In this document: positions 7,368 to 30,103 of the stretch, piece after piece | Position numbering within the stretch: the stretch's first letter is position 1 | Layout: each line of letters starts with the position of its first letter | Program-made: the position numbers and the translations under genes | Source: Bacillota bacterium | Lineage (GTDB): Bacteria; Bacillota; Limnochordia; JAAZLZ01 | Length of the DNA: 40,286 nucleotides | Assembly: GCA_012522085.1 (NCBI GenBank) | Contig: JAAYLE010000148.1 | Location: 1 to 40,286, forward strand | Direction of reading: 5' to 3' | Notes under the pieces: model-generated | What the model was told of the DNA's origin: nothing | Databases searched by the model: none | What the model saw: only the letters and a program-made list of their open reading frames with translations

Positions 7368-8636
7368 TCAGAAGGAAATCTCCCACCCTAGGTTGAGGTT
7401 TTTTTCGGGAACCCAATAAGCATCGAGCCGACCCCGGTCGTAACGTCCAAGCTCAAAAAACACCTTGTTGCGTCCCAACTCCCGCTCGGCACGTAAGTAG
7501 TAGTAACGGTTCTTGTCTTCCCGCTGCCTGATCTTGCCGATCCCCCGCAAGGTCCACCCCTTCACTCGGGCATCGAGCTGGAGTCGCCAGCGCCTTTCCA
7601 ATTCTTGAAACCCGACTGTCGCCGACAACCAAGAAAGGATCTTCCCCCGCAACCGGAAGCGCCGATCCCATCCATCTGACTGCTCCACCGCAACGAGGGC
7701 ACTGCTCCAGGGACCACGGTATGCTTCCGTCTCTAACCGGCGTCGACCATTTCGGTCTTCAAGGCGCACCCGCCAACGCCAGTCCAGGATCTTCCGCCCC
7801 AAGAAATCAAGGGACATTTCTTCATCCCTTTGCACACCGGCAAGGTCCGTGAGCCGCTTTACTTCAACTAGCAGCCGGCCCCAGCGATCATTATGCCAGC
7901 GGATCCCCACAGTCGACCCCCGCCGGTCTCGTCGATAGGGATCTTCCCAATTGGCCCAGGATCGCCACCCTTCCCCGATGTGTTGATAAGTCCACGAAAT
8001 ATGGCCCCAAGAAGTGGGATAGCGGAGGGTTGCTACACCTGCCCCATCTTCGCCGTCCCTGTTGACCCTGCCTAAAGCTCCCCCTAGTTCTAACTTGCCC
8101 AGAAGGGCTCGAGCATAGGCATTATACATCCACGCGTACCAATCCGACTCGAGGTGTTGGGCGATGCCGGCACAGCCCAAATGGAGCCTATCTCCCCACC
8201 ACTCCCACTGGGTGCCGGCCAAATGTCCCAAGCGGCGGGGATAGGGAAAATCGCGCACGTAAAGACCGACCAACCGCCCCCGACCCATGTTGCCCACCAG
8301 CACTCCCCCGTAGCTGTCCTCCCTGCGGACGCCTTTAGTGACCATCCGGAAAGGATCGGTGAAGCTGATGTGTTCATGATTGTACATGAGCCGTAGACTC
8401 CAATCGCCAGGCGCCACTCCCCATCGCCCGGACAGCAGCCCCCATTCCTCCTCGGACTTGCGCCCGAGCTCGGCTTCAATCAGCGTCAACGGTCCCCCAC
8501 GGCCGTAGTGGATAATCGGACGGAGCAGGCCTTCCGCCCATTCCATGCGCACACCAAAGTTGACCTTTCCTGTACTCGTCAGCAACAACAAGATAATGCC
8601 GGTATACAGACACAATCGGACCCGCTGATACCGCAT
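7368..8636 (-). CDS. Predicted signal-peptide-bearing beta-barrel (outer-membrane-like) protein
   Basis: 422 aa; hydrophobic N-terminus LCLYTGIILLLLTSTG, many alternating amphipathic strands (GRGRLVGLYVRDF, RWRVRLEDRNGRRRLETEAYRG, RWRLQLDARVKGWTLRGIGKIRQ), C-terminus NLNLGWEISF ending in Phe. Confidence 0.6.
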   Translation of the reverse strand: MRYQRVRLCLYTGIILLLLTSTGKVNFGVRMEWAEGLLRPIIHYGRGGPLTLIEAELGRKSEEEWGLLSGRWGVAPGDWSLRLMYNHEHISFTDPFRMVTKGVRREDSYGGVLVGNMGRGRLVGLYVRDFPYPRRLGHLAGTQWEWWGDRLHLGCAGIAQHLESDWYAWMYNAYARALLGKLELGGALGRVNRDGEDGAGVATLRYPTSWGHISWTYQHIGEGWRSWANWEDPYRRDRRGSTVGIRWHNDRWGRLLVEVKRLTDLAGVQRDEEMSLDFLGRKILDWRWRVRLEDRNGRRRLETEAYRGPWSSALVAVEQSDGWDRRFRLRGKILSWLSATVGFQELERRWRLQLDARVKGWTLRGIGKIRQREDKNRYYYLRAERELGRNKVFFELGRYDRGRLDAYWVPEKNLNLGWEISF

Positions 8637-9082: not shown

Positions 9083-10342
9083 CTATCCAGCTTGCCAAAG
9101 AACTTCTTCTGTGGGGCCAATAGCCGCGGCGGTCAGCGGCCCCGATAGTAAACGCTGGGCAACCCGCTGAACCATGTCCACAGTGACGGCATCGATCTTC
9201 GCCGCAAGTTCATCGGGAGTCAAAATGGCTTCATAAAACAACTCCGACTTAGCGATCCTCCCCATCCGGGCCGCGGTGCTTTCCAGGCCCAGCATCAAGC
9301 TTCCCTTCAACTGCTCCTGCCCCCGATGCAATTCCTCCGCCGTTACCCCCTCTTCCATCAGCCGGTCGAATTCATCCTGGATGATTTGGGTGACCTGGCC
9401 GACGTTTTCCGGTCCCGTCCCGACATAAACGCCGAAAACCCCCGCATCCTGGAAACATGAATGGTAGGAGTAGGTGGAATAAACCAGGCCCCGTTCCTCC
9501 CGCAGCCGCTGAAACAATCGGGAGCTCATGCCTCCCCCGAGGATTACATCAAGGACGTAAACAGCAAACTTGTCTTCGTCATGGCGAGGAACTCCCAACC
9601 CGCCGATGCAAAGATGCACTTGCTCAATATCTTTGTATCTCAAGGCAGCCTCACCGGGCTTGTCCACCGGCATCACGTTAGTTATCAACGGACGGGAAGG
9701 CAGGGAAGAAAAATACTGCTTGACTTGGTCAACTACCTGTTGATGGGTGACATTGCCTGCCGCGGCCACCACCAAATTGCCGGGTACGTAATAATCGGCG
9801 ATGAATTCCATTACGTCCTCTCGCTTCATCTCACGGATGTTGTCCTCGGAGCCGAGGACAGACAACCCTAAGGGATGACTACCGAGGACGGCGCTGGCAA
9901 ACAGATCGTGGACCAGCTCATCCGGCGAGTCTTCACACATGCGGATTTCTTCAATAACAACGTTTTTTTCCTTCTCCATCTCTTCCAGGTCGAAGACCGA
10001 GTTTAAGAACATATCCGCTAACAACTCCGCGGCAACAGGCAGCTGTTCATCAAGGATCCGGGCATAATAACAGGTCCGCTCCTTGCCGGTAAAGGCGTTG
10101 AGCTGACCCCCCGCAGCATCAATAACTTCAGCTATTTCCCGGGCAGAGCGGTTTGTTGTTCCTTTGAACATCAAGTGCTCGATTAGATGAGAAATGCCGT
10201 TGTTTTCCACCGTTTCGTTTCGAGAGCCAGTGCGGAACCAAAACCCTAAGGACACCGTTCTTACGTATGGGATCGACTCCGTCACGACTCTGATTCCGTT
10301 TGGCAAGATCGTTTTCTGGTACAAGCAGCCTACCTCCCTCAC
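9083..10342 (-). CDS. ymxG: M16 family insulinase-like zinc peptidase (YmxG/MlpA type)
   Basis: 419 aa; inverted zinc motif HLIEH in GISHLIEHLMFKGT, FTGKERTCYYARIL, GGGMSSRLFQRLREERGLVYS. Confidence 0.93.
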   Translation of the reverse strand: MREVGCLYQKTILPNGIRVVTESIPYVRTVSLGFWFRTGSRNETVENNGISHLIEHLMFKGTTNRSAREIAEVIDAAGGQLNAFTGKERTCYYARILDEQLPVAAELLADMFLNSVFDLEEMEKEKNVVIEEIRMCEDSPDELVHDLFASAVLGSHPLGLSVLGSEDNIREMKREDVMEFIADYYVPGNLVVAAAGNVTHQQVVDQVKQYFSSLPSRPLITNVMPVDKPGEAALRYKDIEQVHLCIGGLGVPRHDEDKFAVYVLDVILGGGMSSRLFQRLREERGLVYSTYSYHSCFQDAGVFGVYVGTGPENVGQVTQIIQDEFDRLMEEGVTAEELHRGQEQLKGSLMLGLESTAARMGRIAKSELFYEAILTPDELAAKIDAVTVDMVQRVAQRLLSGPLTAAAIGPTEEVLWQAG

Positions 10343-18676: not shown

Positions 18677-19333
18677 TTAGAAAGAAAGGGCTCCTCCCGC
18701 CGTGAAGACATTGGCCTGGATCTTCTTCAGCTCACCTTGATAATCATCTCTCGGTTCAAGGCAGCTGCCTTTGTATCCAACGACGATCTCAAGGGGCCAA
18801 ACGACGGGATAGCGCAAACTGGCTCCGTATCGGGCCAAAGGAGCACTGCCCTCCAGCTCTCCGGCATCGTTTGTCTCCACCCACGAAAAGGTGGGCGACT
18901 GCTGGTAATAGCCTTCTAGAACGACGCCATCGAGATCGACCGCGGCCCTTGCACCGACGAAGGGTCCCTTCCCTTCAATCTTGGTCGACCCAACCGACAG
19001 GTCTTCACCAGTGTATCCGCCGCCCACATAGGCCGCCAACGGTAAGGGCCCCAAGGGGAGGCGCAATTCAACACTGCCGGTGTACGTGGTGTAGTCGACC
19101 TGGGCGTCCTCTTTCTCATCCATCAGCATCAGATAGCTGCCGCCAAGCCTAAGCAGGCCCAAATTGAGGCCTCCATCGAAGACCCAAGCCCGTTCTTCCA
19201 AGCTTGACTCGCCCGCATGCTCCACTGTAGCCTTTGTCCAACCTACGCCCCCGTTGAAGGTGCTGGCTCCAGCTACTCCCGCAAAGACTAGCACTCCTAC
19301 CAAGGCTCCGATCAAGGACTTTTTCAACTCCAA
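18677..19333 (-). CDS. Small outer-membrane-like beta-barrel protein with signal peptide
   Basis: 218 aa, TTG start; signal MELKKSLIGALVGVLVFAGVAGAS; repeated strands (LNLGLLRLGGSYLML, LPLAAYVGGGYTGED, GPFVGARAAVDLDGVVLEGYY), C-terminus NVFTAGGALSF ending in Phe. Confidence 0.72.
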   Translation of the reverse strand: MELKKSLIGALVGVLVFAGVAGASTFNGGVGWTKATVEHAGESSLEERAWVFDGGLNLGLLRLGGSYLMLMDEKEDAQVDYTTYTGSVELRLPLGPLPLAAYVGGGYTGEDLSVGSTKIEGKGPFVGARAAVDLDGVVLEGYYQQSPTFSWVETNDAGELEGSAPLARYGASLRYPVVWPLEIVVGYKGSCLEPRDDYQGELKKIQANVFTAGGALSF

Positions 19334-25252: not shown

Positions 25253-26059
25253 CTATCCGCGCAACCATCGATGGGCGTCGGCAACCACTCGCCCTACTTC
25301 GTCCTCCAGCAAAACCGTCTCGGCCGTTTGCTTTCGCCAGTAGATCAAAAACTCGATGTTCCCTTCCGGACCGGTGATGGGCGAATACGTAAGGCCAACG
25401 GTCTTCCAGCCCCAGCTTAAGGCCGCCTGGGCGATTTCCAGCAAGACATGTCGATGAACCTCCGGATCCCGAACGACCCCCTTCTTCCCCACTTGTTCCC
25501 GACCAGCTTCAAACTGGGGCTTCACCAGGGCGATAACTTCACCGGCGGGAGTCAACAGGTTCCAGAGCACTTCGAGGAATTTTCGGATCGAAATGAATGA
25601 GACATCCACAGTTGCCAAATCCGGGGGTTCTTCAAGATCCCCCGGATTCATATGGCGGATATTAGTCCTCTCCATCACGACAACCCGCGGATCGGTCCGC
25701 AGCGACCAAGCAAGCTGTCCGTATCCCACATCAACGGCGTAGACTTTGCGCGCACCGTGTTGCAGTAAACAGTCGGTGAACCCCCCGGTAGAGGCGCCAA
25801 CATCGATAACGACCTTGTCCGTCACATCGACCTGCCACAAGTCTAGGGCCTTCTTCAGTTTCAATCCGCCCCTGCTGACGTAGGGAAGAACCTGACCCTT
25901 CACCTCTATCTCCACCTCGGGGGGAAACTTGCTGCCGGGTTTGATGACCTGTTGACCATTCACGTAGACGATGCCCGCCATGATCATTCCTTGCGCCCGT
26001 TGCCGACTAGGGGCCAAGGAGCGTTGGGTGAGCAGCTGATCGAGCCGAACCCTAGCCAA
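25253..26059 (-). CDS. tlyA: TlyA-family S4-domain rRNA methyltransferase
   Basis: 268 aa; S4 RLDQLLTQRSLAPSRQRAQGMIMAGIVYVNGQ; DVGASTGGFTDCLLQHGARKVYAVDVGYGQL. Confidence 0.96.
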   Translation of the reverse strand: MARVRLDQLLTQRSLAPSRQRAQGMIMAGIVYVNGQQVIKPGSKFPPEVEIEVKGQVLPYVSRGGLKLKKALDLWQVDVTDKVVIDVGASTGGFTDCLLQHGARKVYAVDVGYGQLAWSLRTDPRVVVMERTNIRHMNPGDLEEPPDLATVDVSFISIRKFLEVLWNLLTPAGEVIALVKPQFEAGREQVGKKGVVRDPEVHRHVLLEIAQAALSWGWKTVGLTYSPITGPEGNIEFLIYWRKQTAETVLLEDEVGRVVADAHRWLRG

Positions 26060-27896
26060 GGGATTTCCTCCCTTCCCTCCTCAGGGCCTCTTGGGCATAG
26101 GCGCTGATAGCCTCCGGCGTCAAACCATACTTTTCATGGAGCACCGAAACAGGGCCATGCTCAATAAAGACGTCGGGCAGGCCAATCCGACCTATGAGCC
26201 TGCCATTGGGACAAGCTTCGAGGACGGCGCTGCCAAATCCCCCCATCAATACGTTTTCTTCAACGGTAATCAGGTAGCCCGGTGTGCTTCGAATCAATTC
26301 CACATCCAACGGCTTGACGAAACGAGCATTAACCACCCCGGCATCGATGCCCTGGCGGGCCAGAAGCTTGGCTGCCTCCTGGCAAGTCCCTACCATGGAG
26401 CCAAGGGTAATGAAATTCAGGTCCTGGCCCGTCGATAGCCTCTGCCCCCGCCCCAGAGCGATTGGTTCTTCAGATCCGAGGGGCGTCAGACTGCCGCGTG
26501 GGTAGCAAAGGGCAACTGGACCTTCATAGTTGAGAGCCCAAGCTAACATATCTTCTAATTCCTTGCCATCCTTCGGCGCCAAGATGACCAGACCAGGGAT
26601 AATCCGTAAGAAGGACAGGTCGAAGGCTCCGTGGTGGGTTGGGCCATCTTCCCCGACCAAACCGCTGCGGTCGATCGCCAAGACCACCGGCAGCCCCTGC
26701 AGACAGATGTCATGGATGAGTTGATCGTATCCCCGCTGCAGGAAGGTTGAGTACATAGCTACTACCGGCCGCTTTCCCCCGACGGCCAGTCCCGCGGCCA
26801 AGACCAGGGCATGCTGCTCGGCAATGCCCACATCGAAGAATCGATCGGGAAACTGCTGCTGGAATACACTGAGGCCCGTCCCTTCGGCCATCGCCGCGGT
26901 GACGGCCACAATTCGGTCATCCTCCTTGGCCATCCGGCAGAGCGTCTCGCCGAAGAGTCGACTATTAGACGGTCCATTTTCGCCGGATGATGCGGCCGCA
27001 ATGCCATGGTACTGTCTCGGATTGCGCTCGGCCAGAGGATGTCCCTTGCCCTTGGTAGTCACCACATGTAGGAGCACCGGGCCCTTCATGGCCAGGGCAT
27101 CCCGCAAGCCCCACCTCAAAAGCCCGATGTTATGTCCGTTCAAGGGTCCGTAATAAGAAAACCCGAGCTCTTCAAAAAACATCCCCGGTACGAGCACCTG
27201 CTTCAGGCCATCTTTGAGCTTGTCGACGACCCGGTGGACGATCCCGCCAAAAGCAGGGATTTGTTTCAGCAAGTTTTCCAACTCGGTCCTTGCTTTATAT
27301 AAAGTGGGGTCCATCCGCAGCTGGGTAAGATAGCGGGCGAGGGCCCCAACGTTTTTGTCAATGGACATTTCATTGTCATTCAGGATCACCAGCAGGTCAG
27401 TTCCCCGGTGCCCGGCGTGATTGAGGGCTTCAAAGGCAAGTCCTGCCCCCAAGGCGCCATCGCCGATGACAGCCACCACATGGTAATCCTCCCCGGCCAG
27501 ATCCCGCGCCTCAGCTAAGCCTAAAGCCGCCGAGATGGAAGTACTGCTGTGGCCGGCACCAAAAATGTCATGGGGACTTTCGGAGCGGCGGGGAAACCCG
27601 CTAAGGCCCCCATATTGTCGCAGTGAGGCAAACTGGTCCCGCCGTCCCGTAAGGAGCTTGTGGGCATAAGTCTGATGCCCCACATCCCAGATGATCTTGT
27701 CCCGGGGACTGTCTAAAATGCTGTGGAGGGCAATGGTCAATTCCACCACACCCAGGTTGGCCGCCAAATGTCCCCCGCAATTAGAGACAGTCGAGATGAT
27801 CTCCTCCCGGATTTCTTCCGCCAGCTTGCTTAGCTCGCTAGAGGTTAGACCTTTCAAGTCGGCGGGCGAGTTAACCGCGTCTAATACTCGAGTCAT
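26052..27896 (-). CDS. dxs: 1-deoxy-D-xylulose-5-phosphate synthase
   Basis: Start refined to ATG 27896 behind GAGGAG; GHLAANLGVVELTIALH, GDGALGAGLAFEALNHAG, VAVTAAMAEGTGLSVF. Confidence 0.97.
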   Translation of the reverse strand: MTRVLDAVNSPADLKGLTSSELSKLAEEIREEIISTVSNCGGHLAANLGVVELTIALHSILDSPRDKIIWDVGHQTYAHKLLTGRRDQFASLRQYGGLSGFPRRSESPHDIFGAGHSSTSISAALGLAEARDLAGEDYHVVAVIGDGALGAGLAFEALNHAGHRGTDLLVILNDNEMSIDKNVGALARYLTQLRMDPTLYKARTELENLLKQIPAFGGIVHRVVDKLKDGLKQVLVPGMFFEELGFSYYGPLNGHNIGLLRWGLRDALAMKGPVLLHVVTTKGKGHPLAERNPRQYHGIAAASSGENGPSNSRLFGETLCRMAKEDDRIVAVTAAMAEGTGLSVFQQQFPDRFFDVGIAEQHALVLAAGLAVGGKRPVVAMYSTFLQRGYDQLIHDICLQGLPVVLAIDRSGLVGEDGPTHHGAFDLSFLRIIPGLVILAPKDGKELEDMLAWALNYEGPVALCYPRGSLTPLGSEEPIALGRGQRLSTGQDLNFITLGSMVGTCQEAAKLLARQGIDAGVVNARFVKPLDVELIRSTPGYLITVEENVLMGGFGSAVLEACPNGRLIGRIGLPDVFIEHGPVSVLHEKYGLTPEAISAYAQEALRREGRKSLG

Positions 27897-27897
27897 G

Positions 27898-28623
27898 TTA
27901 CTCTCCTCGTTTCCCTTTCCGCTTCCGTCCCTTCTTGGACTGCCGATTAGCCTTTCCGAAGATGGCAATCCCGGTGCCCTTCTCAAGCCAGTAAAACAGC
28001 CGGCCCACGGCGAGGACGATATCATCGGCGTATTTTAACGCAATCACTTTCCCACAAGCTTTGCCCGCAACGGTCAAGGCGGCAATCACCGCCACCATCA
28101 GGGTCGTCACTACCGGTTCTTTGAATCCCGGCCGCAACAGGAGCACGCGCATCACAACCGCCGTGGCCACGGCGCCGCTCAGCGTTCCGGCCACATCACC
28201 GACCATATCGTTGGCAAAGTTGGCTACTCTGTCGGCATGGCGAATGAGGCGGACAGCTTGCTGTGCGCCGGCAACCCGGTCGACAGCCATCGCATGGAAG
28301 GGCTCTTCCCGAGCGGCGGTGACAGCAACCCCGACGATGTCAAAAATGATGCCTAGTCCCACGATGACCAGGAGCAAGACCAAAGCAGGTAAGAGGGTGA
28401 AGAAGGTGAGAAGGGTTTGACTCCCCAGCGAAATGAACACTGATAAAAAAAAGGTCGCTACCCCGACGGCCACAAACCGCCGTATCTGAGAGCGAAAATT
28501 CGGCTCGCCCAAGGAAAGGAACACCGCCTCCTTAGGGTATGTATGGGCCGGCAGCACGCTGAGTAAAGATTGTGGCTTCAGGTCCAGCAGGTTTTCCCAC
28601 AGGCCTTCCGAAGATGTTGCCAT
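27898..28623 (-). CDS. oapA: DUF21-like integral membrane protein; probable OLE-associated protein A (OapA)
   Basis: Start refined to ATG 28623; VGLGIIFDIVGVAVTAAREEPFHAMAVDRVAGAQQAVRLIRHADRVANFANDMVGDVAGTLSGA; between dxs and the non-coding ispA-proximal region; Lys/Arg-rich C-terminal tail. Confidence 0.8.
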   Translation of the reverse strand: MATSSEGLWENLLDLKPQSLLSVLPAHTYPKEAVFLSLGEPNFRSQIRRFVAVGVATFFLSVFISLGSQTLLTFFTLLPALVLLLVIVGLGIIFDIVGVAVTAAREEPFHAMAVDRVAGAQQAVRLIRHADRVANFANDMVGDVAGTLSGAVATAVVMRVLLLRPGFKEPVVTTLMVAVIAALTVAGKACGKVIALKYADDIVLAVGRLFYWLEKGTGIAIFGKANRQSKKGRKRKGKRGE

Positions 28624-28639
28624 CTTGGCGGTTTCCCCT

Positions 28640-29159
28640 TTACGGCCTGCCTGTTCTGTCGCCAAGAACAGAGCTAGATCGCCACTTAGCCCACATCGCA
28701 ATCCCCAACGTGCCATCCACCGGAAACAGTCTAGGAGTTTTCCTCAACGACGCTAATTGCCTTCTAGCCCCTTTTGCAGAATGGGTTTCAAGCAGTCCAA
28801 ACCAAGAATAGGTTCCACGGCCGCTGAACCATTCTTGTACCATGCTATCCCACCACCCCACTCAGGGCAGGCTACACTGCACCCAACACTAAGTACTGCG
28901 AAAGCAGCTTCTGCATCGCGTGCAGGTTCAGCCCAAGCCGTAACCGATGGCCACGAACTTGGGTCTCCGCGGAAAGGGGGTCAACGCCTACATGCCTTTG
29001 TAGATCGCCCCCGCTTCCTTAACCCCCAGCAGCAGCCCCCGACTGGGCGTCGGCGGCCACCACCAGGGACTTCATCGATGTGCCCTCGACGGATTTTTAG
29101 GCCCGTCTTCAAAGGCAACCGCGCCGACTAGAATACTGCGCCGGCCCACTGTTTGGTGT
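28640..29159 (-). ncRNA. ole: Probable OLE RNA (ornate, large, extremophilic)
   Basis: ~590-nt ispA-oapA gap with no conserved ORF; TATAAT at 29166-29171 upstream; tandem hairpins at 29039-29053, 28988-29003, 28911-28925, 28896-28907 and a final CTGTTCT-N7-AGAACAG at 28651-28671; ispA-[RNA]-oapA-dxs order is the established OLE context. Confidence 0.82.
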
Positions 29160-29165
29160 AGCTGT

Positions 29166-29194
29166 ATTATAACACACCGCCCCAAACCCCGCAA
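29166..29194 (-). promoter_or_regulatory. Candidate promoter for OLE RNA
   Basis: Minus strand TTGCGG - 17 nt - TATAAT; good -10, weak -35. Confidence 0.5.
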
Positions 29195-29212: not shown

Positions 29213-30103
29213 TCATCTATCCCTATGTAAGATGTAGCCGACAAGCTCTCTGAGGGGCCATGCTTCCTCACCCAAGCCCGCCAGGGCCGCCAAAGCATTC
29301 GCGGCCGCACCGTGAGCAGCCTCTTTCGCCTTTTCCAGGCCGAATAGTGCCGGGTAAGTCGCTTTCCCATGACTCGCATCACTGCCCACTGGCTTGCCCA
29401 GCTTGTCCACATCCCCTTCCACATCGAGGATGTCATCGGTGATCTGGAACAACAAACCAAGCTCCCGGCCATAGGTGGTTAACGAGGCCAGCAGTTCCTC
29501 CCCTGCGCCCCCCACCATAGCACCCGTTCGCAAAGCGACGGTAATCAGATCCCCTGTCTTATGGCAGTGAATGTACTCTAAAGTGGCCCTGTCGACCTTC
29601 TTGCCCTCAGATTGCAGGTCGACCACCTGGCCGCCGATCAAGCCTTCGCTGCCGACGGCCTGGGCCACCTCGGCAATGATGTTTACCACCGCGGCATCAT
29701 CCGCCAGGGAAAGACGAGTAAGCAAATAAAAGGCCCTGGTGAGCAAAGCATCGCCGGCCAGGAGGGCGATGGCTTCACCGAACATTTTATGATTCGAAGG
29801 CTTGCCCCGTCGCCAATCATCATCATCCATACATGGCAAATCATCGTGGATTAAAGAAAAAGAATGGATCATCTCCAAGGCTGCCGCTAAGGGCAGGGCC
29901 GCATCGCTCGAACCCTGGGCAATCTCGGCCGCGGTAAGGGCCAAAATGCCCCGCAGACGTTTGCCCCCTCCCAAGGTGGAATAGCGCATCGACCGGTGCA
30001 GAATCTCCGGCACAACATCATCGCCAGGCAAATACTCTTCCAAGGCCCTTTCGATCAATTGCGCCCGGCTGCGTACATATTGCTGCAGATCTTTCACCTT
30101 CAT
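29213..30103 (-). CDS. ispA: Polyprenyl (farnesyl) diphosphate synthase
   Basis: 296 aa; LIHDDLPCMDDDDWRRGKPSNH; second Asp-rich motif QITDDILDVEGD. Confidence 0.97.
   Translation of the reverse strand: MKVKDLQQYVRSRAQLIERALEEYLPGDDVVPEILHRSMRYSTLGGGKRLRGILALTAAEIAQGSSDAALPLAAALEMIHSFSLIHDDLPCMDDDDWRRGKPSNHKMFGEAIALLAGDALLTRAFYLLTRLSLADDAAVVNIIAEVAQAVGSEGLIGGQVVDLQSEGKKVDRATLEYIHCHKTGDLITVALRTGAMVGGAGEELLASLTTYGRELGLLFQITDDILDVEGDVDKLGKPVGSDASHGKATYPALFGLEKAKEAAHGAAANALAALAGLGEEAWPLRELVGYILHRDR

Follow-up and report, generated by a model that had tools for sequence, protein, structure and literature searches.

Does the minus-strand gap between ispA and a CNNM/DUF21-like membrane gene encode the OLE RNA together with its partner OapA, and what role might such a complex have in a cell bounded by an outer membrane? 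Few structured bacterial RNAs of unsolved biochemical function are as large as OLE. It is found in most classes of Bacillota and, among the major ones, is absent only from the Gram-negative-staining Negativicutes, which has been read as a hint of a role at the Gram-positive cell wall (Fernando and Breaker, PMC11332333). The 2025 model of Lyon and Breaker has P3 span the membrane and domain 2 possibly in contact with the wall, in passages that mention no diderm host (PMC12265935). This transmembrane-RNA model remains an unproven proposal wherever it is applied. The locus examined here lies in a stretch of 40,286 nucleotides (the window) from a bacterium whose class we infer to be Limnochordia, and it almost certainly encodes an OLE ribonucleoprotein. 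The features of the locus are collected in Table 1.

Table 1. Features of the ole locus, in window coordinates
Feature	Position	Strand	Basis
dxs, next gene downstream, probable start ATG 27896	26052..27896	-	PF13292, 398 bits
oapA, OLE-associated membrane protein A, ~204-208 aa, start GTG 28524 or TTG 28512	27898..28524	-	OapA profile
Shine-Dalgarno AAGGAGG of oapA, abutting the OLE 3' end	28527..28533	-	direct reading; identical in both sister genomes (L057, L058)
ole, complete OLE RNA of 629 nt	28532..29160	-	RF01071 match
Closing helix P1, 3' strand GCCGGCCCA	28544..28552	-	pairs with 29140-29148
P3/P3.1-position stem, 3' strand	28749..28764	-	pairs with 29111-29125
P3/P3.1-position stem, 5' strand, 15 positions	29111..29125	-	pairs with 28749-28764
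Closing helix P1, 5' strand UGGGCCGGC	29140..29148	-	pairs with 28544-28552
Extended -10 element TGTTATAAT, promoter of ole without a good -35	29166..29174	-	direct reading; also in L057 and L058
ispA (polyprenyl synthetase), upstream neighbour	29213..30103	-	PF00348, 200 bits

The host and its envelope

The host genome carries BamA with POTRA domains and two OmpH genes, all in one cluster on one contig. In the window, spo0A, spoIVB, spoIIIAA, and spoIIIAE scored above their NCBIfam cut-offs, and a spoIIIAC/AD gene was also present. Judged by these genes, the host is genetically diderm and equipped for sporulation; the original prediction had allowed for a diderm spore-former, and this holds at the genome level. 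It is very improbable that the host is functionally monoderm, with outer-membrane genes that are contamination or relics and an ordinary envelope context. The assembly is indeed fragmented, and LpxC was not found in the three genomes of the host genus (31 of the 73 class genomes do have it). Against this reading, BamA and OmpH stand together on one contig, Omp85 was detected in 71 of the 73 class genomes, and cultured Limnochordia have two membranes by electron microscopy (PMC11456536). Because the host assembly is 93% complete and split into 223 contigs, not finding MpfA or LpxC counts for less than finding a gene. Omp85 without a detected LpxC was also the pattern of G000 and of class families f1 and f8-f12, which may possess outer membranes without lipid A.

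The OLE RNA and its fold

The Rfam OLE covariance model (RF01071) matched the gap over its whole length (model positions 1-616 of 616) at 460.5 bits and an E value of 3.4e-132, far above the gathering score of 50. No other match was found in a genome-wide search, and ole is, thus, a single-copy gene. The gap is real and holds an OLE RNA, as had been predicted, but the extent given for it, 28623-29194, was not correct, since the RNA reaches about 90 nt further, to the ribosome-binding site of oapA. Likewise, the ATG at 28623 that had been taken for the start of the membrane gene is in frame but lies inside the RNA, whose 3' end and closing P1 strand fall in the supposed gene start; homologues of the protein begin about 100 nt downstream. 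The hairpins that had been named are OLE helices, and one of them, a "terminal CTGTTCT hairpin" placed before the gene, lies within the RNA as its helix 19. We also considered the gap as coding and rejected this, as the plus-strand open reading frame at 28757-29131 has no Pfam match and lies opposite the RNA.

The gap's own TATAAT had also been noted correctly. It is found at 29171-29166 (-), with the OLE match beginning five bases downstream, and the extended -10 element and the OLE/oapA junction are the same in two sister genomes. A TATAAT-like box precedes most OLEs in the class. The ole promoter was not reported by a sigma-70 scanner because there is no -35 element at 16-18 nt. No terminator was found between OLE and oapA in the window; several relatives of family f5 have a hairpin and T-run at this place.

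The fold was examined in an alignment of 32 OLE sequences, made up of the one in the window, 30 more from its class, and a single second copy. We scored 164 pairs, namely the Rfam pairs transferred from the window plus the closing helix P1, which is unpaired in the Rfam model. Standard pairs were formed in 89% of cells, and this fell to 39-47% when the partner was shifted by 1-3 columns. Two-sided changes were seen in 93 of the 164 pairs compared to 62 +/- 4 in shuffles. P1 was 96.9% paired, with two-sided changes in eight of its nine pairs. A further stem, which we name P3/P3.1 by inference from its position, is not among the Rfam pairs; 14 of its 15 positions pair in the window, with one G-A, and it covaries (125 cells with two-sided change compared to 45 in shuffles). 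By duplex prediction, this stem usually measures 12-15 bp, both within the class and in OLEs from other genera. The 32-sequence and model alignments also placed highly conserved blocks in the window, such as the A-rich P4 loop CCUAAAAAUCCG, J4a/5 ACAUCGAUGAAGU, and the P9 GGCC loop.

There is hardly any chance that OLE here is a decayed relic that has kept its sequence fortuitously. A few genomes of the class lack OLE and OapA together, so loss does happen. However, the match is full-length, 155 of the 164 pairs form in the window sequence itself, P1 and P3 carry many compensatory changes, oapA is intact and well conserved, and the promoter and junction are conserved in the genus.

One known element of the RNA was missing. 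In Halalkalibacterium halodurans, bS21 binding has been linked to a CCUCC anti-Shine-Dalgarno mimic in P6. The window lacks this mimic, its P6 reading CCCCCUUUCC, as do 29 of the 32 aligned sequences overall; the other 3 have it. With the mimic missing, the alignment suggests that the bS21 contact as described for H. halodurans may fail in Limnochordia.

OapA and the other protein partners

By Pfam, the gene order is nusB, xseA, xseB, ispA, [OLE], oapA, dxs, tlyA, nadK, argR, recN. This agrees with the original prediction in being the OLE neighbourhood, although nadK had been omitted between tlyA and argR. An M16 peptidase of MlpA/YmxG type is encoded about 18 kb from ole, at window positions 9083-10342 (-); such proteins have been reported to correlate with OLE. 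Two further window genes, at 18677-19333 (-) and 7368-8636 (-), have signal-like N-termini, barrel-like composition, and no Pfam match, and they may encode outer-membrane proteins.

The membrane protein was compared with a profile of eight OapAs that adjoin OLE in other lineages (identified by record title), from which the window and its genus were excluded. It scored 225 bits, compared to -0.7 for an MpfA-type protein of the class (L149, 447 aa). The protein has four hydrophobic segments and no CBS or CorC domain by Pfam. Its AlphaFold2 model (pLDDT 81, pTM 0.68) shows helices, and its best PDB matches were CNNM transmembrane structures (for MtCorB, probability 1.00, E 0.03, and TM ~0.5). The predicted structure therefore resembles the CNNM transmembrane domain, in line with the distant CNNM kinship of OapA that has already been published (PMC11332333). 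That the protein is instead a conventional DUF21/CNNM ion transporter belonging to the MpfA family is extremely unlikely, since its likeness to CorB/CorC transmembrane domains in the model and its weak Pfam CNNM match (25.8 bits, under the 28.4 cut-off) are a published property of OapA, while the OapA-only profile matches it strongly and MpfA scores below zero, and CBS and CorC domains are missing. The profile groups the protein with OapA, as had been predicted, and an MpfA identity was rejected. Neither of the two outcomes that had been named as refuting the prediction, a missing covariance-model match or a failure to group with OapA, was observed.

OapA was next to OLE in 14 of the 15 tested loci of relatives and named genera. 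Homologues of OapB and OapC, for which a genome search had been proposed, were both found away from ole. The OapB candidate (L056, 1715-1993, minus strand) lies between map and infA, its usual locus, and its sole PDB match was the solved OapB structure 7k9b (E 4e-10). The OapC (YbxF) candidate (L049, 5988-6275) is likewise at its usual locus, between rpoC and rpsL, and matched YbxF 4lck at E 1.9e-12; another L7Ae protein is encoded elsewhere in the host genome. Neither OapA nor OapB has a family in NCBIfam, and OapA has none in PHROGs either. No CorC_HlyC domain was found in the host genome or its two genus mates, and MpfA was undetected. Together with these partners, the OLE of this locus is a secure addition to an already known RNA class.

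Distribution, proposed mechanism and comparison with known systems

OLE was detected in 64 of the 73 class genomes, Omp85 in 71 of them, and OapB in 67. OLE and OapA agree in 72 of them. The exception, the 99%-complete G005 (L016), has OLE followed by a hairpin and dxs, with no oapA found there or elsewhere. In a phylum sample of 399 genomes, OLE occurred in 72 of 103 genomes with Omp85 and in 212 of 296 without it (Fisher p=0.80). This count takes no account of phylogeny; it therefore shows that the two often coexist and are not strongly associated, without establishing strict independence. Since OLE is equally frequent with and without Omp85, it is not tied to a monoderm wall and cannot depend on a Gram-positive one, in contrast to the published hint. 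Throughout the class, OLE and its partners OapA, OapB, and OapC occur alongside an outer membrane, which weakens the reading that links OLE to an envelope type. The terms "rare" and "unusual envelope context" used in the original prediction were, thus, overstated, as nearly every genome of this diderm class has OLE and no association with Omp85 was seen in the phylum sample. OLE presence in the Limnochordia is not new in itself, because the published survey (PMC11332333) very probably includes the class; our literature search for OLE with Limnochordia found no paper discussing both. For specialists, the useful part is the envelope result, and the cultured diderm species of Limnochorda, Geochorda, and Carboxydochorda are possible test systems for OLE.

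Joint absence of OLE and OapA shows that loss occurs in the class. In family f2 (G001-G003), OLE, OapA, and OapB are all missing and each genome has two or three CorC_HlyC proteins, making this family a candidate for replacement of the OLE complex by MpfA. Across the class, CorC_HlyC was found in 7 of 9 genomes without OLE and 28 of 64 with it; an anticorrelation of MpfA and OLE has the right direction, but was not accepted (p=0.08).

Several loci depart from the usual arrangement. oapA lies upstream of OLE rather than downstream in three genomes of family f10 (G032 [L023], G033, and G041), and the oapA matches of G069 and G071 are convergent to OLE. One genome, G024, has a second full-length OLE (L054, 3355-3993, minus strand; G024:C52:8354-8992) that scored 472 bits, is 90.5% identical to the genome's normal OLE, and differs from it in P1 by compensatory changes. 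This copy has no OapA; it is collinear with a YbhN-like gene and an MpfA gene and adjoins a divergent CDF cation exporter. The MpfA gene encodes CNNM and then CBS-CorC in another frame, with residues apparently missing between them. The second copy is possibly an assembly error or contamination. Assemblies also break in or near OLE (L053, G009, G010, G028, G069, and G072), and fragmentary OLE matches in metagenome-assembled genomes may be artefacts. A 295-nt OLE in G050 was rejected as a variant, as it is at a contig end.

A mechanism can be proposed from published work on H. halodurans and clostridial OLE structures. By this analogy, ole would be transcribed as part of the operon around it as well as from its own extended -10 promoter, and the OLE 3' end would be processed from a transcript shared with oapA, given that no terminator separates the two here. 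OLE would dimerise through its loops, be anchored in the inner membrane by OapA, and be bound by OapB and OapC. The complex would help the cell to withstand Mg2+, cold, alcohol, and related stress, and it would be the host's only CNNM-type device because no MpfA is detectable. With an outer membrane around the host cell, any segment of OLE passing through the inner membrane would end up in a periplasm rather than in a thick Gram-positive wall. We put forward, as a doubtful but plausible proposal, that in diderm Bacillota the OLE ribonucleoprotein spans the inner membrane, with about one-third of the RNA in a periplasm closed by the outer membrane (one that seems to lack lipid A in this genus), and that its conserved job would be inner-membrane ion or stress control, not Gram-positive wall sensing.

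Compared to the Rfam OLE consensus, the window RNA has a 21-nt extension in one hairpin loop, and the neighbouring hairpin is shortened. It shares its RNA class with OLE variants 1 and 2 of the gut bacteria TANB77 and RF39. In those variants, P7-P9 are shortened or P7 and P8 are lacking, and OapB and OapC are largely lacking (PMC11332333). In contrast, the window OLE aligns to the complete model, and the host genome encodes both proteins. The predicted OapA fold is like the transmembrane domain of MpfA, CorC, and CorB, the CNNM-CBS-CorC Mg2+ transporters, but OapA has no CBS or CorC domains and the sequence profile separates the two. The OLE system of H. halodurans differs in that the host here is a diderm member of the Limnochordia and its P6 is without the CCUCC mimic. 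MpfA is undetected here and reported absent from H. halodurans (PMC11332333), and the two systems are alike in the full-length RNA, its fold, the position of oapA directly downstream, the gene neighbourhood, and the possession of OapB and OapC.
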